NCBI GenBank assembly: GCA_947488435.1
Contig: CANKZG010000003.1
Coordinates: forward strand, 124,001 to 188,000
DNA length: 64,000 nucleotides
Source of the DNA: an uncultured Flavobacteriaceae bacterium
Lineage (GTDB): Bacteria > Bacteroidota > Bacteroidia > Flavobacteriales > Flavobacteriaceae
Direction of reading: 5' to 3'
A model generated the notes under the pieces. It had not been told where the DNA came from. It made no database searches and saw nothing but the letters and a program-made list of their open reading frames with translations. The position numbers were made by a program, and so were the translations under genes. This document shows positions 3,579 to 14,397 of this stretch, one piece after another; the stretch's first letter is position 1, and every line of letters starts with the position of its first letter.

Positions 3579-4394
3579 TTAACCGGTATAAGCATCTATT
3601 GCCTTCTTTACAGAACCGTGTTTTTTAAGTAAGGCTTGCGCTTTATCATAGTTCAGTCCCAATTCTTCTACCAAGTAACGGGTACCGCGATCTACTAATT
3701 TGGTATTACTTAATTGCATGTTTATCATTTTATTCCCTTTCACTCTTCCAACTTTAATCATCAATGCTGTAGAGATCATATTTAATACTAATTTTTGAGA
3801 TGTGCCACTTTTCATTCGAGTACTACCAGTGACAAACTCGGGACCTACATTTACTGCAATTTGTATGGTCGCTGCAAGTGCCAAAGGGGAACCTGGATTA
3901 TTCGTAATACAAGCCGTGAGAACGTCATTCGCATTGGCAGTTTCAATGCCACCAATAACATAAGGCGTTGTTCCTGAAGCGGCAATACCCACTACCGTAT
4001 CCAAACTATTAATATCATATGCCTGTAGGTCTTTCCAAGCCTGTTTGCTATTATCTTCCGCAAACTCCACCGCTTTTCGAATTGCAGTATCTCCACCTGC
4101 AATCAATCCTACTACCCGATCAAACGGCATTCCAAAAGTTGGTGGTATTTCCGATGCATCTAAAATTCCTAATCTACCACTTGTTCCTGCCCCTATATAA
4201 AAAAGCCGCCCCCCTTTAGTAAAACGAGGAATAATAGCATCAACAAGTTTTGTGATTTCGGGAATACACGCATGAACCGCCTCAGCCACTTTTTGATCTT
4301 CAGCATTCATCTTTTTTAAAAGGGAAAGCGTATCCATTTCTTCCAAATGGTCATAATGCGAAGGAGTTTCTGTAATTTTAATATAATCCGACAT
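3579..4394 (-). CDS. murQ: N-acetylmuramic acid 6-phosphate etherase
   Basis: MurQ cleaves the D-lactyl ether of MurNAc-6-phosphate to give GlcNAc-6-phosphate and D-lactate in the cytoplasm, the committed step in reusing wall-derived muramic acid. The 271-residue protein has the SIS sugar-phosphate fold: GAGTSGRLGILDASEIPPT (residues 68-86, with Glu82 matching the catalytic Glu of the family), IAASGTTPYVIGG and STRMKSGTSQKLVLN. It is slightly shorter than the enterobacterial protein (about 298 residues) but has all core motifs. The gene starts two bases after the regulator stop, so both are probably transcribed from the deoR promoter at 5179-5186. Its substrate is made by AnmK, encoded at the far end of the divergent operon. 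Confidence 0.96.
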   Translation of the reverse strand: MSDYIKITETPSHYDHLEEMDTLSLLKKMNAEDQKVAEAVHACIPEITKLVDAIIPRFTKGGRLFYIGAGTSGRLGILDASEIPPTFGMPFDRVVGLIAGGDTAIRKAVEFAEDNSKQAWKDLQAYDINSLDTVVGIAASGTTPYVIGGIETANANDVLTACITNNPGSPLALAATIQIAVNVGPEFVTGSTRMKSGTSQKLVLNMISTALMIKVGRVKGNKMINMQLSNTKLVDRGTRYLVEELGLNYDKAQALLKKHGSVKKAIDAYTG

Positions 4395-4396
4395 AT

Positions 4397-5146
4397 TTAT
4401 AGCAACTGTATATCCTGGTTTTTAAAGGAAATGAGAGCGTTATTATCAGGGTCTAGCTCTGTAATCATAGTGTTGATTGCACTTACGTCACAGGTTTTAT
4501 ACCGGTGATTTGAATTTAATTTTTCTGAAATTGATAAAAGAATTGTTTTTTTAGATGCCTTTATTACCGCCTTTTTCACCTGAACAATATCCCAATCAAA
4601 CTCTGTTAGACCGTATACGGCATCTACATAACCAGTGCCTATGAATCCGTAATCTACGGTAATTCCAGAAAGGTTATGCATAGCATTAGCTCCAATGGCA
4701 ATTTGTGCATCACGAGACAGCTGTCCGCCAATAAATATTACTTGAATATTAGGCTTTGTTAACAATTCCAGAGCAACTGGCAAACTTAAGGTAAAACAAG
4801 TAAGCTGCAACTCATGTGGTATTGCTCGTGCTAATTCTACACAAGTGGTTCCGCCATCGATGAGCAATACACTTCCTTCTTTTAATAAACTTACTGCTTT
4901 TTCGGCAATCTTGGTTTTCTCTTCAATTGCATAAATATTCTGATTCTTAGGATTAAAATTGACGAAGCCCAACGATATTGCCCCACCATGTACTTTTCGC
5001 AGTTTCTGCTCCGCATCCAATTCTTTTACATCGCGACGAATAGTATCAATAGAGACATCTAATGATTCAGCAATGTCGGTTAACAATACCCTATTGTGTA
5101 ATGCAACTTCATTTAATATAACACGAAAACGCTCCTCTTTTAACAT
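4397..5146 (-). CDS. DeoR/GlpR-family transcriptional regulator of the amino-sugar locus
   Basis: A 249-residue regulator with an N-terminal winged helix-turn-helix (about 6-57; LLTDIAESLDVSIDTIRRDV is the DeoR signature) and a C-terminal sugar-phosphate sensing domain (DGGTTCVELARAI, IGTGYVD, SISEKL). DeoR-family proteins normally repress sugar-catabolic operons and release DNA on binding a phosphorylated sugar. Its position between murQ and the divergent nagB operon makes it the likely local regulator, with GlcNAc-6-P, GlcN-6-P or MurNAc-6-P as plausible effectors (inference). The intergenic DNA holds an inverted repeat and two palindromes that could be its operator. The start at ATG 5146 is 32 bases after a TAnnTTTG element on the same strand. 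Confidence 0.92.
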   Translation of the reverse strand: MLKEERFRVILNEVALHNRVLLTDIAESLDVSIDTIRRDVKELDAEQKLRKVHGGAISLGFVNFNPKNQNIYAIEEKTKIAEKAVSLLKEGSVLLIDGGTTCVELARAIPHELQLTCFTLSLPVALELLTKPNIQVIFIGGQLSRDAQIAIGANAMHNLSGITVDYGFIGTGYVDAVYGLTEFDWDIVQVKKAVIKASKKTILLSISEKLNSNHRYKTCDVSAINTMITELDPDNNALISFKNQDIQLL

Positions 5147-5178
5147 GATTCAAAACCCTATATCTATATAAACGATTG

Positions 5179-5186
5179 CAAAGATA
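5179..5186 (-). promoter_or_regulatory. -7 promoter element for deoR-murQ
   Basis: Minus-strand TATCTTTG matches the Bacteroidota -7 consensus TAnnTTTG and lies 32 bases upstream of the deoR start. No clean TTG -33 element is seen at the usual distance; the left arm of the inverted repeat lies there instead. Confidence 0.6.
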
Positions 5187-5201
5187 CTAAAATAATACAG
5201 A

Positions 5202-5280
5202 TTGCTGTTTTTTACCGTTTCATGTTATTAAATTATTAAATATTGCAATTTATTGCAATATAAAAAGCAAAAAACAGCAA
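5202..5280. promoter_or_regulatory. Candidate operator: 12-bp inverted repeat between divergent promoters
   Basis: TTGCTGTTTTTT at 5202-5213 is repeated perfectly inverted as AAAAAACAGCAA at 5269-5280. The arms sit roughly 16-27 bases upstream of the two outward-facing TAnnTTTG elements (5186-5179 minus and 5299-5306 plus), where RNA polymerase would contact the -33 regions. This symmetry suggests that one regulator controls both transcription units, with the encoded DeoR protein as the obvious candidate. Binding is inferred. Confidence 0.55.
5242..5259. repeat. Two phased ATTGCAAT palindromes
   Basis: The perfect 8-bp palindrome ATTGCAAT occurs at 5242-5249 and again at 5252-5259, exactly 10 bp (one helical turn) apart, between the arms of the inverted repeat. 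Further ATTGCAAA-type sequences occur at 5174-5181 and 5335-5342. They may be part of the same operator system. Confidence 0.6.
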
Positions 5281-5298
5281 ATATATATATTTTTTGCA

Positions 5299-5306
5299 TA
5301 CATTTG
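5299..5306 (+). promoter_or_regulatory. -7 promoter element for the nagB-anmK operon
   Basis: TACATTTG matches TAnnTTTG and lies 39 bases upstream of the nagB ATG (5346). There is no good TTG -33 element at the expected place; the right arm of the inverted repeat lies there instead. Confidence 0.6.
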
Positions 5307-5345
5307 CAGTTCAAATAGATCATTATTACTTTAAAATTGCAAAAA

Positions 5346-7289
5346 ATGGTAACTGAGCAAAATACTTTAAGTATCCCAACGGATGAAGCCTCTCGAAAAT
5401 TTGAGAAAATTTCAACTGTGATACATGAAAATTCGGAACAGGCTTCACATTATGTCGCTACCGAAATTGTGAATCTAATTAAGCAACGACAAAAACAAGG
5501 TAAGAAACTGGTTTTAGGTTTGGCAACGGGTTCTACGCCAACAAAAGTTTACGATTACCTTGTTCAGTTTCATAGAGAAGGGTTGAGCTTCAAAAATGTA
5601 ATAACATTTAATTTGGATGAGTACTTTCCTATGCAACCGGATTCAATTCATAGTTACGTTCGTTTTATGAACGAACATCTTTTTGACCATATCGATATTC
5701 CTGCCGAAAATATAAATATCCCAAAAGGAGATCTTAGCAAGGAAGATGTTCGCGAGTTTTGTCAGAATTACGAACAAAAAATTAGCGATGCCGGAGGAAT
5801 AGATATTCAGGTACTCGGTATTGGTAGAACCGGACATATCGGTTTTAATGAACCAGGGTCTTCAATAAAAAGTAAAACCCGCTTGGTGCGTCTAGATCGT
5901 GTAACACGATTGGATGCTGCAAGTGATTTCTTTGGTTTAGAAAATGTTCCTTCCAGAGCTATAACCATGGGGGTGGGAACTATTATGGAGGCTAAACGCA
6001 TTATTTTAATGGCTTGGGGTGAAGGAAAAGCCAATATTATAAGACAGGCAGCTGAAGGACCCATCAGAGAATCTGTACCTGCTACCTTCCTGCAACAACA
6101 TACGAATTGTGATTTTATAATCGATCATGCCGCAAGTTCTGCACTTACCAGAGTATCAACGCCATGGTTAGTTAGCGATTGTGAATGGAATGAGAGTCTA
6201 ATTAAAAAAGCAACTATTTGGTTATCTGAAAAATTAGAAAAAGCGATCTTAAAACTTACCAATGAAGATTACAATGAGTATGGAATGGGGAGTCTTATTG
6301 CCGAAATTGGCTCTGCAGAACATATTAATTTAATTGTATTTAATCAATTGCAACGCACTATAACCGGTTGGCCTGGCGGAAAACCTCAAGCTGACGATAG
6401 TTCTAGACCCGAAAGACGTTATCCTTTTCCAAAAAAATCGCTCATTTTTAGCCCACATCCAGATGACGACGTAATTTCTATGGGAGGTACGCTGTTACGA
6501 TTGGTAGATCAGGGTCATGAAGTTCATGTAGCCTATCAAACTTCAGGAAATATTGCGGTATTTGATGACGAAGTAATACGCTTCTTAGATTTTGCTTTAG
6601 ATGCGCAACCGAATAACCAAGCGCTACAAGAACAGGTGAAAAAGGTTAGAAAATTTCTTCAGAACAAAAAACCAGGAGAAGTAGATAGCGCTGAGATACA
6701 AAAATTTAAAGGGCTTATTCGAAAGGGCGAGGCATTGTCGGCATGTAGATATTGTGGTGTTGATGAAAAAAACGCGCACTTTCAAAATCTACCTTTTTAT
6801 GAAACGGGTACTGTAAAGAAGAAACCGTATTCCGAAGCGGATGTAAAAATCACCTATGATTTGCTGCAAAAAGTTAAACCGCATCAAATCTTTGCTGCGG
6901 GAGATTTGTCGGATCCACATGGAACACACCGGGTATGTTTACAGGTTATTTATGCCGCTTTGGATCAATTTGTAGCTGAAAAAGCTGAATGGGTCAATGA
7001 CTGCTATGTGTGGCTATACCGTGGTGCATGGCAAGAATGGGATATTGCCGACATGGAAATGGCAGTACCTATTGGTCCAAAAGATATGACGCGAAAGAAA
7101 AATGCTATTTTTAAGCATCAATCTCAAAAGGATGCAGCCATGTTTCCTGGAAATGATGAGAGAGAGTTCTGGCAAAGGGCTGAACAGCGAAATACAGCGA
7201 CTGCTCGTAAATATAATGCCTTAGGGATGGCAGAATATGAAGCACTAGAAGGTTTTGTTCGTTATAAGTTTAATGTCACCTCAGAGTAA
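5346..7289 (+). CDS. nagB: Glucosamine-6-phosphate deaminase (NagB) fused to a PIG-L/LmbE deacetylase domain
   Basis: A 647-residue two-domain cytoplasmic protein. Residues about 20-270 are NagB/GlcN-6-P isomerase-like: LGLATGSTPTKVY (57-69), FNLDEYF (88-94, Asp91 aligned with the catalytic base) and GIGRTGHIGFNEP (158-170, His164 and Glu169 kept). The usual Asp two residues before that His is Thr162. Residues about 370-640 are PIG-L/LmbE-like with the zinc motif HPDDD and a late DPHGTHR. PIG-L proteins typically remove N-acetyl groups from GlcNAc compounds. NagB converts GlcN-6-P to fructose-6-P plus ammonia, so the fusion might join deacetylation and deamination (inference). This architecture is known in Bacteroidota, often annotated only as deaminase. 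ATG 5346 is preferred over a TTG nine bases upstream. First gene of the plus-strand operon. Confidence 0.9.
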   Translation: MVTEQNTLSIPTDEASRKFEKISTVIHENSEQASHYVATEIVNLIKQRQKQGKKLVLGLATGSTPTKVYDYLVQFHREGLSFKNVITFNLDEYFPMQPDSIHSYVRFMNEHLFDHIDIPAENINIPKGDLSKEDVREFCQNYEQKISDAGGIDIQVLGIGRTGHIGFNEPGSSIKSKTRLVRLDRVTRLDAASDFFGLENVPSRAITMGVGTIMEAKRIILMAWGEGKANIIRQAAEGPIRESVPATFLQQHTNCDFIIDHAASSALTRVSTPWLVSDCEWNESLIKKATIWLSEKLEKAILKLTNEDYNEYGMGSLIAEIGSAEHINLIVFNQLQRTITGWPGGKPQADDSSRPERRYPFPKKSLIFSPHPDDDVISMGGTLLRLVDQGHEVHVAYQTSGNIAVFDDEVIRFLDFALDAQPNNQALQEQVKKVRKFLQNKKPGEVDSAEIQKFKGLIRKGEALSACRYCGVDEKNAHFQNLPFYETGTVKKKPYSEADVKITYDLLQKVKPHQIFAAGDLSDPHGTHRVCLQVIYAALDQFVAEKAEWVNDCYVWLYRGAWQEWDIADMEMAVPIGPKDMTRKKNAIFKHQSQKDAAMFPGNDEREFWQRAEQRNTATARKYNALGMAEYEALEGFVRYKFNVTSE

Positions 7290-7307: not shown

Positions 7308-8249
7308 ATGTATATTGCCGCAGCACAATTTGAGCCCAAAGATGGAGATAAAGACTATAATCTAGCGATTATAGAAAAGCTTGCGAAAAAAGCAAAATCT
7401 GAAGGTGCAGATGTGATTAGTTTTCACGAAATGTGTGTTACGGCATATACATTTACTAAAGACTTAAGTCGTGAGGAATTGACTGCCTTAGCCGAACCTA
7501 TCCCGGATGGAAAAAGTATTCAAAAGCTTATTCAAATCGCAGCAAGCTCCGATATTCCTATTTTGGCAGGTTTAGTTGAAAAGGAAGGAGAGGCACTTTA
7601 CAACACCTATGTATGTGTATCTAAAGATGGCGTTTTGGCAAAATATCGGAAATTACATCCATTTATAAGTGATTATATGTCGCCCGGAAATGACTATGTG
7701 ATTTTTGATCTTTTTGGATGGAAATGTAGTATTTTAATTTGCTATGACAATAATATTATTGAAAATGTAAGGGCAGTAAGTATTTTAGGTGCTGAAGTTA
7801 TTTTTGCTCCTCATGTTACCGGATGTACCCCTTCTGCAATGCCTGGAAGAGGGTTTGTTGATCATTCATTTTGGGAAAACCGTGTAAAGAATCCCAAAGC
7901 ACTTCGTTCAGAGTTTGATGGACCAAAAGGACGCGAATGGCTTATGCGCTGGTTGCCGGCAAGAGCTTATGATAATGGTCTTTACTATATTTTTACCAAT
8001 CCCATAGGCTATGACGGGACACATTTAAAAAACGGCAACGCGATGATCATCGATCCTTACGGAGAAGTTTTATCGGAGATCAAAAGTTTTGACGCTTGTA
8101 TTACCCTTGCTAAACTCACTAAAGATAAAATCCCGTTGTCTGGAGGGTACCGCTATAAAAATGCTAGAAGACCAGAAATATACGGTCATATATTAGGTAA
8201 AATGCATCAGCCAAAACTCAAACCTATATGGATGACTACCAAAAATTAA
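7308..8249 (+). CDS. Carbon-nitrogen hydrolase (nitrilase superfamily amidase)
   Basis: A 313-residue nitrilase-superfamily enzyme. The catalytic Glu-Lys-Cys triad is visible: Glu41 in SFHEMCVTAY, Lys115 in KYRKLHP and Cys145 in ILICYDN. These enzymes hydrolyse nitriles, amides or carbamoyl groups; the substrate cannot be read from the sequence. No signal peptide is present, so it acts in the cytoplasm. It lies 18 bases after nagB and 24 before the GHL10 gene within one operon. That context suggests a role in handling wall-derived amides or amino-sugar derivatives, which is inference. Confidence 0.92.
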   Translation: MYIAAAQFEPKDGDKDYNLAIIEKLAKKAKSEGADVISFHEMCVTAYTFTKDLSREELTALAEPIPDGKSIQKLIQIAASSDIPILAGLVEKEGEALYNTYVCVSKDGVLAKYRKLHPFISDYMSPGNDYVIFDLFGWKCSILICYDNNIIENVRAVSILGAEVIFAPHVTGCTPSAMPGRGFVDHSFWENRVKNPKALRSEFDGPKGREWLMRWLPARAYDNGLYYIFTNPIGYDGTHLKNGNAMIIDPYGEVLSEIKSFDACITLAKLTKDKIPLSGGYRYKNARRPEIYGHILGKMHQPKLKPIWMTTKN

Positions 8250-8273: not shown

Positions 8274-9803
8274 ATGTCTACAAAAACCTATTTCACGTTA
8301 TTTTTTCTGGTTATAATGACATCATGTACGGTATTTACCAAAGCTATTCCACAACCTAAGCGAGAGTTTAGAGGGGTTTGGATTGCAACAGTCGCAAATA
8401 TTGATTGGCCAAAAAATGGTGCGGATGCAGTTGCAAAACAAAAAGAGGATTATCTCAATATTTTAGACTACTATAATAAATTACATTTTAATGCCGTAAT
8501 TGTTCAAATAAGAACCGCAGGAGATGCCTTTTACCCTTCAGCTTATGCACCTTGGTCTCGCTTTCTTACAGGTACTGAAGGGGAAGCAAAAGAAGACCAT
8601 CCGGACTTACTATCCTGGATGATCTTAGAGGCGCACAAACGGGGCTTTGAATTCCATGCCTGGCTTAATCCTTATCGGGCCACTTTTGATGAAAATATAG
8701 AAGTTTTAAGCGCTTCTCATGATTATTTTCAACATCCTGAATGGATGCTTAAATACGGCAAAAAAAATTACTACAACCCCGGTTTACCAAAAGTTCAAAA
8801 TCATTTAGCTGCAATAATTAAAGAAACCTTAGACAATTATGATATCGACGCCATTCATTTTGATGATTATTTTTATCCTTATAAAATTAAGGGAGAAATT
8901 TTTCAAGACTCTTTAGCCTATAGAACGTATGCAAGACCAAATCAATCCGTAGATAATTGGCGCAGAGCTAATATAGACTCTTTAGTAAAAAAAGTGCATG
9001 CAACTATAAAAAGTACAAAACCCTGGGTGCAATTTGGAATTAGTCCTTTTGGAGTTTGGAAGAATAATAATACCGACCCTAAAGGTTCTGATACCCGTGC
9101 AGGGCAAACTACCTACGAAGATTTATACGCAGATCCGATTTTATGGATGGAAAAAGGTTGGATAGATTATCTAGCACCTCAAATCTACTGGAGTTTAGAA
9201 TACCCTCCAGCATCCCATCGTAAGCTCATAAAATGGTGGGGAGGTCAACCCAAGTTAACGAATTTATATGTTGGGAATGGCGTTTATAAAATTCGAAATA
9301 ACGCAGATAAAGCTTGGAAGAAGAAAAAGGAAGTTCCAAATCAACTAAAGCTTTCAAGACAAACTTCAAACATAGACGGCAACATCTTTTTTAGTGCAAA
9401 ATCCCTAATGCAAGACCATAAGGACGTAGTAAATTATATGAAGCGTAAGTACTACAGGAACATTGCATTACCTCCAACTTCCATGGATGTACAGAATCAT
9501 GATCCTTTCAAAACCCTTATAACAGATTTTACGGAAACAAAAGAAGCCATAGCTTTTAATATTGATGCTTCAGATATCACAGTTCATTTTGCATTAATTT
9601 ATAGAATCCGGAAGAAGGATAACTCCGTAGTCCTTACCAACAAAAAACCCATTGCAAAGGTTTACTTAAATGCTGAAAACAAGCATCGCATATTGAAAAG
9701 AGAATTTCAAAACAAAAAGCATATTGCCTTAACTTTTGCAGACCGGTATGAAAGAGAAAGTGAGCCAATTGTAGTACATTTAAAATATGATCAGAAAAGA
9801 TAA
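8274..9803 (+). CDS. GHL10-family (DUF187, DigH-like) glycosyl hydrolase lipoprotein
   Basis: A 509-residue protein with a lipobox IMTSC (Cys18), so it is anchored in the envelope. The GHL10/DUF187 TIM-barrel spans roughly residues 30-370: REFRGVWIATVANIDWP near its start, then VQIRTAGDAFY, AWLNPYR, IHFDDYFYPY, FGISPFGVW and YLAPQIYWS. A C-terminal segment (about 400-509) looks like an FN3-type beta domain. The family includes E. coli DigH (formerly YddW), which cuts denuded peptidoglycan glycan strands. Placement between amino-sugar enzymes and an AmpG-like permease fits release of glycan fragments for recycling. Its 3' end overlaps the permease start by 17 bases, indicating translational coupling. 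Confidence 0.9.
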   Translation: MSTKTYFTLFFLVIMTSCTVFTKAIPQPKREFRGVWIATVANIDWPKNGADAVAKQKEDYLNILDYYNKLHFNAVIVQIRTAGDAFYPSAYAPWSRFLTGTEGEAKEDHPDLLSWMILEAHKRGFEFHAWLNPYRATFDENIEVLSASHDYFQHPEWMLKYGKKNYYNPGLPKVQNHLAAIIKETLDNYDIDAIHFDDYFYPYKIKGEIFQDSLAYRTYARPNQSVDNWRRANIDSLVKKVHATIKSTKPWVQFGISPFGVWKNNNTDPKGSDTRAGQTTYEDLYADPILWMEKGWIDYLAPQIYWSLEYPPASHRKLIKWWGGQPKLTNLYVGNGVYKIRNNADKAWKKKKEVPNQLKLSRQTSNIDGNIFFSAKSLMQDHKDVVNYMKRKYYRNIALPPTSMDVQNHDPFKTLITDFTETKEAIAFNIDASDITVHFALIYRIRKKDNSVVLTNKKPIAKVYLNAENKHRILKREFQNKKHIALTFADRYERESEPIVVHLKYDQKR

Positions 9804-11061
9804 AAATGCTTGGCTTTGGGTACCAATACTTTATTTTACTCAAGGAATACCGTACGTTATGGTAGTTACGGTATCCGTAATTATGTACAAACGCTTGGGG
9901 ATTAGCAATGAAGACATCGGTTTGTATACCAGTTGGTTGTATTTACCATGGGTGTTGAAACCTCTTTGGAGTCCTTTTGTTGATTTAAAAAGCACCAAAC
10001 GCAATTGGTTTTTGGGAATGCAACTTCTGATTGCGCTATCGTTATTGGGTGTTGGCCTTACATTACCTACGAATCAATTTTTTATTACCACCCTAGCCTG
10101 TTTTTGGATGGCAGCTTTTTCCTCCGCAACAAATGATATTGCATCAGACGGCTATTATATGATTGGATTAAGCGAAAAAAAACAGTCATTTTTCGTTGGA
10201 ATGCGAAGTACTTTTTACAGACTCGCTATGGTAACCGGAGAGGGATTGATTGTAATTTTTGCCGGTTATCTTGAAAACTATTATGGGGATAATTCAAAGG
10301 CATGGTCAATCACAATGATTTGTGCAGCTACGCTAATGTTATTACTTACAGTTTCCAATTTCTTCTCGACTCCGAAGTTTGAATCTGCTGATCCAACAGT
10401 TAAAGATAAACCAGGAAGTTTCGGAGAAGTTTTTGCCTCTTTTTTTAAGAAGAAAAATATTGGTATTGCACTGGCATTTATACTTTGTTATCGTTTGGGA
10501 GAGTCGCAATTGGTTAAAATGGCTGCCCCTTTCCTACTAGATCCAATAGAAAAAGGTGGTTTGGGATACAGCACAGAAGCTTTAGGTAAAATTTTTGGAA
10601 CTGTAGGAGTTATTATGCTATCCTTAGGCGGTATTCTCGGAGGAATTTTAATTTCGCGTGATGGACTCAAAAAATGGATGCTTCCCATGGTACTTTCATT
10701 AAATATTCCAAACGTACTTTATGCTATTTTGGCTTTTACCAAAACCACAAATATTATTGCTGTTGTAGCTACTGTTGCTTTTGAAAAATTCGGGTATGGA
10801 TTTGGTTTTGCAGCTTTTCTAATCTATTTGATATATATCGCTGAAGGAAAATCCAAAACCTCACATTATGCCATCGCTACCGGTTTTATGGGATTGGGTA
10901 TGATGCTCCCAGGAATGATTAGCGGTTATGTACAAAAATGGCTAGGCTATGATGGTTTTTTTATTTGGGTGGTAATAGCGGCATTACCTTCATTATTTCT
11001 GCTAAAATACATTACCTATCCCGCAGATTTTGGGAAGAAAATTAAAAAATCAGATGGTTAA
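9787..11061 (+). CDS. AmpG-like MFS permease (anhydromuropeptide importer candidate)
   Basis: A 424-residue, roughly 12-helix major facilitator protein. The opening YFTQGIPYVMVVTVSVIMY followed by LPWVLKPLWSPFVD is the pattern of the AmpG/acetyl-CoA transporter branch. AmpG imports GlcNAc-anhydroMurNAc peptides into the cytoplasm. The downstream NagZ-like and AnmK enzymes act on just such cargo, so the neighbourhood supports the assignment, though AmpG-like proteins can carry other substrates. The start at 9787 lies inside the GHL10 gene; the next in-frame Met would delete the first helix. The stop overlaps the nagZ start in ATGGTTAA. Confidence 0.85.
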   Translation: MIRKDKNAWLWVPILYFTQGIPYVMVVTVSVIMYKRLGISNEDIGLYTSWLYLPWVLKPLWSPFVDLKSTKRNWFLGMQLLIALSLLGVGLTLPTNQFFITTLACFWMAAFSSATNDIASDGYYMIGLSEKKQSFFVGMRSTFYRLAMVTGEGLIVIFAGYLENYYGDNSKAWSITMICAATLMLLLTVSNFFSTPKFESADPTVKDKPGSFGEVFASFFKKKNIGIALAFILCYRLGESQLVKMAAPFLLDPIEKGGLGYSTEALGKIFGTVGVIMLSLGGILGGILISRDGLKKWMLPMVLSLNIPNVLYAILAFTKTTNIIAVVATVAFEKFGYGFGFAAFLIYLIYIAEGKSKTSHYAIATGFMGLGMMLPGMISGYVQKWLGYDGFFIWVVIAALPSLFLLKYITYPADFGKKIKKSDG

Positions 11062-12643
11062 AATTCCTCAGTATAAGCAGGCAAGTGAGCTCCTAACGCA
11101 AAGCGAAAAAATAGGACAATTTTTTATGCCAGCCGCCTTCATTAATGATACCGAAGCAGAGATTCAGCATTTAGAACACCAAATTCGAACGCTAGGCATA
11201 GGGGGAATTTGTTTTTTTCATAGCCGAGCAAGTGCTGCCACCAATTTCGAAGGAAAGAAAAAAGTAATTTACAATGACAAAAGCCTTACAACACTCAAGC
11301 GTCTTATAAAACGCTACCAAGCTTGTGCCAGATATCCATTGCTTATTAGTATAGATGCAGAGTGGGGTCTTGCCATGCGTATTGAAGAAACACCACAATA
11401 CCCCTATGCAATTACCTTAGGTGCAATGAACCAGCAAGAGGAACTTATATATGAAGTTGGGAAGCGTATTGCCCAAGATTGTTTGCACGCAGGTATTCAT
11501 TGGAATTTTGCTCCTGTGGTGGATATTAACAGTAATCCTAATAATCCGGTCATTGGGTACCGCTCTTTTGGTTCTAATAAACACAAGGTGTTAGCTGCTT
11601 CAAAAGCATTTCTGAAAGGCGCTCAAAGTCAAGGAATTTTAAGTTGTATTAAACATTTTCCAGGACATGGAGACACAGCAACGGATTCACATCTTGGCAT
11701 GCCAATTATAGACAAATCAGAAATTGAAGTGTTTAACGAAGAACTTTTTCCATTTAAAGCACTTATTAAAGAGGGGGTTGAAGCGGTAATGGTAGGACAC
11801 CTTGCTATTCCTGCTTTAACAAATGGTGAAGCAATACCCGCAACAATATCAGCTCGTATTATCAAAGGAACACTTCGAAAAACATTAGGGTTTAAGGGTT
11901 TAGTGGTCTCTGACGCATTAAATATGCACGCAATTTCAAAGTTATTTCCTGAAAATGGAGATTTAGAATGGACTGCTTTCGATGCTGGAAATGATATCTT
12001 ATGTTTTACGGAAAATTGTGAAGCTGGAATACATAAAATCATGCAAAATGCTACACCTGCACAAATTGAAGATAGCTTTGAACGCGTATGGCGGTTAAAA
12101 GAAAAGATAAACAAACAGCAAAGACCTTCTGAACTCAGTAATGTTGCTGAAATTCAGAAGACCGTTGCCCTCAATAGTCTTACGCTATTAAAAGGAGATG
12201 AAACCACAGTTAATACCATTAGTTCTAAAAAATTTGTAGGCCTAAGCATTGGAAAAAATACCGAGAACTATTTCTTTCAAGAAATTAGCAACACCATAGA
12301 CTTTCCGAAATTACATTTTAATAATGAGAATGGTGATGCCTGTCAAGCAGCTATTACCTCCACAGATAATCTTGTAATTGCCTTATACCCAAGGCATATA
12401 AAACCAAACAACAAGTTTGGACTTAGTGATCAAGAAATTCAGTTTTTAAATAAAACTACAGCCACTAAAAATGTGATCCTATATCTATTTGGAAATCCAT
12501 ACTGTGTACAACATATCGGGATAGAAACTTTAGAAAGTTGCGTCTTAGTTTATCAAGATTTCAAGGCATTTCAGCAAAATGCTGCGCAACACTTTCTAGG
12601 CAAAATAAAAGCAAAAGGCATCGTGCCAGTAAATCTTATCTGA
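11054..12643 (+). CDS. nagZ: Beta-N-acetylhexosaminidase, glycoside hydrolase family 3 (NagZ-like)
   Basis: GH3 enzyme of 529 residues. The NagZ signature KHFPGHGDT (200-208) carries the His/Asp dyad used as acid-base in this subfamily, and the nucleophile Asp287 lies in LVVSDALNMHAI. No signal peptide is seen, consistent with a cytoplasmic enzyme cutting GlcNAc from GlcNAc-anhydroMurNAc. It is longer than proteobacterial NagZ (about 340 residues); the extra C-terminal part (about 375-529) resembles the second alpha/beta domain of two-domain GH3 enzymes. ATG 11054 shares ATGGTTAA with the permease stop. An upstream in-frame ATG (11030) would add eight basic residues and a longer overlap and is less likely. 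Confidence 0.93.
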   Translation: MVKIPQYKQASELLTQSEKIGQFFMPAAFINDTEAEIQHLEHQIRTLGIGGICFFHSRASAATNFEGKKKVIYNDKSLTTLKRLIKRYQACARYPLLISIDAEWGLAMRIEETPQYPYAITLGAMNQQEELIYEVGKRIAQDCLHAGIHWNFAPVVDINSNPNNPVIGYRSFGSNKHKVLAASKAFLKGAQSQGILSCIKHFPGHGDTATDSHLGMPIIDKSEIEVFNEELFPFKALIKEGVEAVMVGHLAIPALTNGEAIPATISARIIKGTLRKTLGFKGLVVSDALNMHAISKLFPENGDLEWTAFDAGNDILCFTENCEAGIHKIMQNATPAQIEDSFERVWRLKEKINKQQRPSELSNVAEIQKTVALNSLTLLKGDETTVNTISSKKFVGLSIGKNTENYFFQEISNTIDFPKLHFNNENGDACQAAITSTDNLVIALYPRHIKPNNKFGLSDQEIQFLNKTTATKNVILYLFGNPYCVQHIGIETLESCVLVYQDFKAFQQNAAQHFLGKIKAKGIVPVNLI

Positions 12644-12656
12644 AAGTACTCAATAT

Positions 12657-13334
12657 ATGGAAGATCCTATCTTAAAAACATGGCGAATTAATGCAAAAGA
12701 ATGGGTTTCCGCAATTCAAAACAACACCATTTCCTCTCGAAAATATACAAACCAAGCAATTGTAGACACCATCCAAACTTTACCCTTAAAAAGAATTCTA
12801 GATGTTGGTTGCGGAGAAGGGTGGCTTGTTAGAGCTATTTCAGCAATGAAAAAAACTGCTGTTGGTATCGATGCTACGGCTGATTTACTTAAGGCAGCTA
12901 GGCAAGAAGGGCCTGAATCTTACCATCTTCTAGATTACTCCCAAATAAGTTTAAGTACTTCTATAAAAGAAGAACCTTTTGATGGAGTTATATTTAACTT
13001 TTCTTTATATCAAGAAAAAGGATTGGTCACACTTTTTAACGCTTTAAAGCAGCATATTTCACCATCAGGATATTTCATTATTCAAACTTTACATCCATTT
13101 TTTTTGATCCAGCATGAAAAAGGGTATCAAAGTCAATGGCTTCAGGATTCCTGGAAAGGGCTTTCAGGAAATTTTAAAGATGGACACCCGTGGTATGCTA
13201 GAGTTTTAAGTGATTGGATTTTAACTTTTAATCAAAGTAAGTTGCAGATTCTTGAAGTAAAAGAAATATTAAATCAAAATCAGGAACCCGTTTCCATTAT
13301 ATTTATTTTAAAAACACCTTATGAAAAAGTATAA
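12657..13334 (+). CDS. Class I SAM-dependent methyltransferase
   Basis: A 225-residue methyltransferase with SAM-binding motif I LDVGCGEGW (48-56), an acidic motif II (AVGIDATADLL) and LHPFF further on. Substrate unknown. It sits 13 bases after nagZ, and its end overlaps anmK by 14 bases, so it is translated together with recycling enzymes. It could modify a metabolite or act on an unrelated target; nothing in the sequence decides this. Confidence 0.9.
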   Translation: MEDPILKTWRINAKEWVSAIQNNTISSRKYTNQAIVDTIQTLPLKRILDVGCGEGWLVRAISAMKKTAVGIDATADLLKAARQEGPESYHLLDYSQISLSTSIKEEPFDGVIFNFSLYQEKGLVTLFNALKQHISPSGYFIIQTLHPFFLIQHEKGYQSQWLQDSWKGLSGNFKDGHPWYARVLSDWILTFNQSKLQILEVKEILNQNQEPVSIIFILKTPYEKV

Positions 13335-14397
13335 AGTAATCGGCTTAATGTCCGGAACTTCTCTGGACGGATTAGATTTAGTGCATTGTACCATTTGGAA
13401 AAAATTAAATCAATGGCAATTTGAAATTAATGCTACTAAATCCGTCGATTATGATGCTGCAATGACAGCACAATTAAAGCATGCTATTACCCTGCCATCT
13501 GAGAAGCTTTTACAATTGCATAACTCCTATGGCCAATGGTTGGGAGAACAGGTATCTTATTTTGTAGAAGAACAGCAATTGGAAGTCGATCTTATTGCAA
13601 GTCATGGCCATACGGTACACCATCAACCGGATAAGGGTATTACGCTTCAAATTGGCTCTGGACAACATTTAGCCAACAATTGCAAGAAAAAAGTTGTTTG
13701 TGATTTTAGAACCAACGACGTTGCCTTGGGTGGGCAGGGTGCTCCATTAGTTCCCATTGGAGATCAGCTGTTTTTTGGTTCTCATGATTTTTGCTTGAAC
13801 TTGGGAGGAATTAGTAATGTATCTTTCGATCATCAAGGCACTCGAAAAGCCTATGATATTGGATTGGCAAACATGATTTTAAATCATATTAGCTCAAAAA
13901 TAAATTTAAAATTTGATGCCGGCGGAGCAATGGCTTCACGTGGAAAGTTGAATACTAAAATGTTGGAACAACTAAATGCGTTGGACTACTATCGTTTGGA
14001 TTTTCCAAAATCTACCGGTTATGAATGGTTTACGGAAAAGGTCATCCCCATAGTAGATGCAACCGAAGATACTATTGAGAATCTGTTACATACTAGCATT
14101 CATCATATTTGTGAACAAATCGCAATTCAAATTACAAAAAATAGCTCTCGAAATAACGCTACCCTATGGATTACCGGGGGTGGTGCACTAAATCACTTTT
14201 TAATTGATATGCTGCAGGAAAAGTTAGGTACAGTTGCTCTTGTAACCCTCCCCTCACCTACCCTAATAGCATTTAAAGAAGCTTTGGTCTTTGCACTGAT
14301 GGGGGTATTGCGTATTGAACAAGAAACTAATGTTTTAGCTTCTGTAACGGGTGCAACTTCGGATTCTTCTAGTGGAGTAGTTTATTTACCGCTTTAG
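13321..14397 (+). CDS. anmK: Anhydro-N-acetylmuramic acid kinase
   Basis: AnmK opens the 1,6-anhydro ring of anhydroMurNAc and phosphorylates it with ATP, giving MurNAc-6-phosphate for MurQ. The 358-residue protein has the ASKHA kinase layout: phosphate-1 motif IGLMSGTSLDGLDL (7-20), ASHGHTVHHQP, CDFRTNDVALGGQGAPLVP with its catalytic Asp, LNLGGISN and a late WITGGGALN. Length and motifs match the family. It is the last gene of the operon; a new promoter follows before udk. Confidence 0.97.
   Translation: MKKYKVIGLMSGTSLDGLDLVHCTIWKKLNQWQFEINATKSVDYDAAMTAQLKHAITLPSEKLLQLHNSYGQWLGEQVSYFVEEQQLEVDLIASHGHTVHHQPDKGITLQIGSGQHLANNCKKKVVCDFRTNDVALGGQGAPLVPIGDQLFFGSHDFCLNLGGISNVSFDHQGTRKAYDIGLANMILNHISSKINLKFDAGGAMASRGKLNTKMLEQLNALDYYRLDFPKSTGYEWFTEKVIPIVDATEDTIENLLHTSIHHICEQIAIQITKNSSRNNATLWITGGGALNHFLIDMLQEKLGTVALVTLPSPTLIAFKEALVFALMGVLRIEQETNVLASVTGATSDSSSGVVYLPL

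Follow-up and report, generated by a model that had tools for sequence, protein, structure and literature searches.

Genes at the locus

The window, the 64-kb stretch of DNA from a marine Flavobacteriaceae bacterium that was analysed as a whole, contains a deoR-murQ unit on the reverse strand and, diverging from it, an operon on the forward strand that begins with a nagB-like gene. The genes and the family matches on which their names are based are as follows.

3579..4394, reverse strand: murQ, the gene after deoR (NF003915, 370 bits, cut-off 168)
4397..5146, reverse strand: DeoR-family regulator of 249 aa (Pfam HTH_DeoR and DeoRC, above gathering scores)
5346..7289, forward strand: fusion of a nagB-like glucosamine-6-phosphate deaminase with a PIG-L deacetylase-like domain (NF002557 at 1049 bits; in Pfam, Glucosamine_iso and PIG-L)
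7308..8249, forward strand: carbon-nitrogen hydrolase (Pfam CN_hydrolase)
8274..9803, forward strand: glycosyl hydrolase-like 10 protein (Pfam GHL10)
9787..11061, forward strand: AmpG-like muropeptide transporter (TIGR00901, the AmpG family, is its best NCBIfam match with 193 bits, short of the cut-off of 350)
11030..12643, forward strand: NagZ-like glycosidase, GH3 (NF003740, 158.5 bits, below the cut-off of 207; Pfam Glyco_hydro_3)
13321..14397, forward strand: AnmK, anhydro-N-acetylmuramic acid kinase (NF007144, 511 bits, cut-off 436)

The regulator combines an N-terminal helix-turn-helix (PF08220, 45.1 bits at a cut-off of 21) with a C-terminal DeoRC sensor domain (PF00455, 137.2 bits at a cut-off of 31.8). 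When it was compared with the named NCBIfam DeoR equivalogs (GlpR, AgaR, SrlR, DeoR, UlaR and others) the best score was 153 bits at a curated cut-off of 300, and the protein is therefore not GlpR, AgaR or another of the named members. The order in the right operon is NagB/PIG-L fusion, carbon-nitrogen hydrolase, GHL10, AmpG-like, NagZ-like GH3, methyltransferase and AnmK, where the names AmpG and NagZ denote best family matches that both fall below the curated cut-offs. Together AmpG, NagZ, AnmK, MurQ and NagB, the genes placed here under common control, constitute the anhydro-MurNAc recycling set, a route which we take to apply on the basis of established family knowledge. The operon genes examined include no separate nagA, and the PIG-L domain fused to NagB (5346-7289) may provide the GlcNAc-6P deacetylase step. 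A similar gene set, including deoR, murQ, nagB and ampG, has been described from a Urechidicola symbiont of a mussel (PMC10199937).

Repeats and predicted promoters between deoR and nagB

Two kinds of symmetric repeat and two predicted promoter elements lie between the divergent genes.

5179..5186, reverse strand: TATCTTTG, the -7 element predicted for the promoter of deoR-murQ, fits TAnnTTTG
5202-5213: left arm of a 12-bp inverted repeat, TTGCTGTTTTTT, exact reverse complement of the right arm
5242-5249 and 5252-5259: twin ATTGCAAT palindromes whose starts are 10 bp apart
5269-5280: right arm of the inverted repeat, AAAAAACAGCAA, exact reverse complement of the left arm
5299..5306, forward strand: TACATTTG, the -7 element predicted for the promoter of nagB, fits TAnnTTTG; 31-32 bp past the start of the proximal box (below) in most relatives

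The original prediction had reported the perfect inverted repeat, the two palindromes and the two outward TAnnTTTG elements, all of which are present at these coordinates. In dinucleotide shuffles of the 199-bp region (n = 2000) a perfect 12-bp inverted repeat arose in 2.8% and one of the same size with at least three G/C in the arm in 0.2%. A repeated 8-bp palindrome 8-12 bp apart arose in 0.35% of 2000 shuffles and, with at least two G/C, in none of the 2000. Both the inverted repeat and the palindrome pair thus exceed local chance. Across the 64-kb window nine positions begin some 12-bp inverted repeat of this kind. For such repeats conservation is a stronger test than shuffling.

TAnnTTTG is the -7 consensus of flavobacterial sigma-A promoters (PMC9723704) and is matched by both elements of the window. 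Positions relative to the start were computed with the -7 element taken as -12 to -5 (PMC9723704). The arms of the inverted repeat are upstream of both predicted start sites, a position that speaks against reading the repeat as an RNA or terminator feature.

Three conserved boxes made of direct half-sites

A scan of GTDB genomes yielded 80 loci with a close relative of the regulator (71-83% identity), nearly all of which have murQ downstream of deoR and a divergent nagB-like gene. With loci from other searches added, 96 distinct murQ-deoR/nagB intergenic regions were available for comparison; viral contigs gave no relative. Three putative operator boxes emerged from this comparison, and in the window they lie as follows.

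5203..5220, reverse strand: deoR-side box, TGCTGTTTTTTACCGTTT on the forward strand and AAACGGTAAAAAACAGCA on the reverse strand; about -29 to -46 of deoR; contains the left arm
5245..5257, forward strand: distal box, GCAATTTATTGCA, degenerate in its middle part; upstream of the proximal box by 22 bp; about -66 to -54 of nagB
5267..5279, forward strand: proximal box of the nagB promoter, GCAAAAAACAGCA; about -44 to -32; contains the right arm

The proximal box agrees with GCAnAAAACnGCA without mismatch in 82 of the 96 regions and with at most one in 95. The deoR-side box, with the forward-strand consensus TGCnGTTTTnTRCnGTTT, is oriented opposite to the two boxes on the nagB side; it matches at all 15 consensus positions in the window and at 13 or more of the 15 in 71/96 regions. 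Its distance from the deoR -7 element is usually 23-24 bp, and CAAAnnTA stands at a near-constant distance from it in the relatives. The distal and proximal boxes are separated by 22 bp in 86 regions and by 21 or 23 bp in the remainder. In the window the GCA half-sites are in register at 5245 and 5255 (distal) and at 5267 and 5277 (proximal), and all four (GCA-10-GCA-12-GCA-10-GCA) are kept in 88 of the 96 regions. GCA pairs at a spacing of 10 numbered 182, in 83 regions, compared with 1.2 in shuffles, which agrees with the direct half-sites of 10-11 bp period found in DeoR-type operators. Judged from these alignments, the predicted operator box GCAwAAAACnGCA is a pair of direct half-sites 10 bp apart and not an inverted repeat; the impression of an inverted repeat arises from two direct-repeat boxes that face each other, each containing one of the arms. 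By the same comparison the twin ATTGCAAT palindromes represent the third, distal box in degenerate form and not separate candidate sites: the octamer occurs anywhere in only 5 of the 96 regions and as a pair in the window alone.

The proposal that DeoR binds the arms or the palindromes therefore needs to be divided. The arms lie inside conserved boxes that are very probably DeoR operators, and as boxes they recur throughout the related genomes, whereas the palindromes do not, only the GCA half-sites within them being retained. The arms had also been placed at the -33 regions of the two outward TAnnTTTG elements, from which TTG was said to be missing. This proved accurate on both sides, as no -33 TTG is conserved at either promoter and the boxes occupy that position. 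The three boxes all fall within about -29 to -66, and none of them overlaps a -7 element or a start.

It could be supposed that the arms make up a single symmetric operator, with each palindrome an additional dyad site and a DNA loop joining them. The repeats are indeed present and above local chance, but the unit that is conserved is a direct repeat, the palindromes are not conserved, and the DNA between the opposed boxes measures 24-36 bp (57 bp in two sister species), which is too short for an ordinary loop. We consider this arrangement extremely improbable, and looping in the strict sense, as had been suggested, is unlikely with such gaps.

Association of the boxes with DeoR

A search with the tandem pattern found it in 40 of 397 genomes of the family, at one place each, while a reversed control pattern had no match in the 397. 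A DeoR homologue is encoded in 39 of the 40 genomes with the array as compared to 73 of the 397 overall, and in all 39 the array is located at the start of deoR. The lone family match away from deoR (L097) has two mismatches and, with none of deoR, nagB and murQ in its vicinity, was put down to chance. The window itself was missed by the tandem pattern (22-bp period, up to three mismatches) on account of its degenerate distal box. In the 4.3-Mb genome of the window the 10-12-10 array occurs once. Four other exact matches to a single box were considered as regulon members and rejected, all being inside coding frames. The uniqueness of the array and the location of the other single boxes within genes indicate that the regulator is probably local.

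The pattern extends beyond close relatives. Upstream of more distant DeoR homologues (36-58% identity) 31 GCA pairs at a spacing of 10 were counted where 0.5 were expected, and the recognition-helix region is similar across these proteins. GCA-N7-GCA repeats were observed upstream at L136, L139, L142, L148 and L150, beside DeoR homologues of other families and classes, which suggests that Bacteroidota DeoR proteins may have a half-site code in common. At L130 (G190), with 58% DeoR identity, the array near deoR is reversed, towards nagB, and a TTTGCTGTTTTT element is located on the nagB side.

The three boxes are accordingly read as very probable operators of the DeoR protein encoded alongside. 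As the pairing of DeoR and boxes rests on co-occurrence, the boxes might instead serve another, unlinked transcription factor. We regard this as very unlikely given the 39 of 40 genomes in which the array is at the start of deoR, the same half-site pattern upstream of distant homologues, and the behaviour of the neighbouring gene. Two classes of NagB/PIG-L genes, with about 80% and about 55% identity to that of the window, are found beside the same deoR and array, with at least seven switches of class on the DeoR tree, and the array persists whichever class adjoins it. In L102 and L171 (G364) the deoR-nagB distance is 1243 bp owing to extra inserted sequence, and the array is still beside deoR.

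Whole-turn spacing of the opposed boxes

From the deoR-side box to the proximal box the spacing measures 64-66 bp in 58 of the 96 regions, 73-76 bp in 36 and 97 bp in 2, while spacings of 67-72 bp occur in none. The steps between these classes amount to about 10 bp, except in two sister species, where the step is 33 bp. Parsimony on the DeoR tree required 14 changes between spacing classes, at least 5-6 of them on well-supported branches. The phase concentration of the opposed boxes was 0.92 at about 10.25 bp and 0.91 when 17 representatives below 80% identity were used. For the distance between ATG and box it was 0.36 (all) and 0.16 (17 representatives), and for the separation of the two -7 elements 0.72. 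In L013-L016 the deoR -7 element is located about 19 bp from the box rather than 23, a shift of about 4 bp, and the operator spacing is still 64. The weaker phasing of the -7 separations, together with a -7 element that moved while the spacing was kept at 64, favours contact between operators over contact between promoters. That the spacing changes by whole turns only points to contact of regulators that occupy a single face of the helix. As the opposed boxes keep the same helical face, their regulators would probably touch.

The same steps could reflect a mode of mutation, namely gain or loss of one 10-bp repeat unit, and not regulator contact. The half-sites are 10-bp direct repeats from which slippage would produce 10-bp steps, and the second half-site of the 74-bp class stands where the 64-bp class has its first. 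Slippage would explain the size of the steps but not the absence of other sizes: no region has a spacing of 67-72 bp despite an unconserved, AT-rich stretch between the boxes, nearby distances vary freely (ATG to box 42-59), and in L013-L016 the operator spacing remained constant when the deoR -7 element shifted. We therefore see slippage as a possible but doubtful account of the pattern, and contact of bound regulators is retained as the probable one.

A proposed recycling switch

Taken together, the intergenic region is best read as the control region of a local, self-regulated switch for peptidoglycan (anhydro-MurNAc) recycling, in which DeoR would act on direct repeats and repression would be relieved by an amino-sugar phosphate; we assign this reading a probability of roughly 0.7. 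The boxes, their register, their spacing and their link to deoR follow from the comparison of relatives. DeoR would bind direct repeats of the half-site (A)AACnGCA, 10 bp apart, in two tandem boxes on the nagB side and in one opposite-facing box at its own promoter. The tandem boxes, being 22 bp apart, would share one helical face. Between the opposed boxes, which likewise keep a common face, the bound regulators would probably make contact. Both promoters carry a box in place of a -33 element, so that DeoR, once bound, would most likely obstruct RNA polymerase on either side, and occlusion of the polymerase is the simplest interpretation of where the predicted boxes lie. An amino-sugar phosphate of the pathway (e.g. 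MurNAc-6P, GlcNAc-6P or GlcN-6P) would then release DeoR, so that deoR-murQ and the nagB-ampG-nagZ-anmK operon are turned on jointly. DeoR binding, repression, contact between the bound proteins and an inducer are what we infer from the comparison, and the identity of the inducer is a guess from the gene neighbours. The original prediction that both directions are switched jointly is in keeping with this, co-ordinate control being the best reading of conserved boxes at -33 of both promoters.

The repressor reading has weak points, in that all boxes are upstream of or at -33, which would suit an activator too, and in that the distal box of the window is degenerate. DeoR might bind the same boxes as an activator of one or both promoters (class II, over -33), possibly in its ligand-bound form. 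Both promoters are without a -33 TTG, the boxes leave the -7 elements and starts free, and NCBIfam lists an L-fucose operon activator within the DeoR family. Most studied DeoR-family sugar regulators are repressors, however. In one organism, C. bescii, the sites of this family overlap promoters or 5' UTRs, which suggests a repressor role (PMC8579813). Moreover, in about ten regions the nagB -7 element is about 21 bp from the box and not 31, a change that a strict class II activator would tolerate poorly, although it equals one helical turn. Activation is on balance unlikely, if still worth weighing, and repression by DeoR is preferred.

A wider proposal is that Bacteroidota DeoR proteins share the GCA-N7-GCA code and that here the two opposed arrays form one nucleoprotein assembly, its helical phase selected through repeated whole-turn changes, which would make both divergent promoters one cell-wall-recycling switch; we would give this even odds. 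In the Flavobacteriaceae, a family with few known transcription-factor sites, the locus offers a concrete and testable pair of operator and regulator for the recycling of peptidoglycan, with a half-site code that seems to reach distant DeoR homologues within Bacteroidota. The spacing steps of 10 bp that occur in nature constitute a ready series of operators for tests of cooperative binding at a divergent promoter.

Comparison with known systems

In E. coli, murQP and the regulator MurR control catabolism of MurNAc. That system resembles the present one in its divergent murQ control region and in MurNAc-6P chemistry; MurR is an RpiR-type regulator, whereas the regulator here is of the DeoR family. 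E. coli DeoR acts through three palindromic operators and DNA looping. It shares with the present case the protein family and the joint action of several operators, but its operators are distant palindromes and those proposed here are direct repeats that fit into about 80 bp. In B. subtilis, two regulators of the SorC family, DeoR and CggR, bind split operators as tetramers (PMC11229326). Likenesses are the several half-operators on one face, binding as an oligomer and a phosphosugar-binding domain; the different family and the combination of palindromes with direct repeats make this a resemblance only.

Closest in operator type are the RhaR regulators of the DeoR family, with direct-repeat operators of 10-11 bp (PMC3870299), and the type is therefore already known for DeoR regulators. 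The present operators differ from these in sequence (GCA-N7-GCA plus an A-tract), in pathway and in having three boxes, one facing the others, with a conserved phase between them. No description of this sequence, pathway and three-box layout was found in the literature searched, which includes few subscription journals. The kind of switch is ordinary; the whole-turn spacing pattern is unusual.
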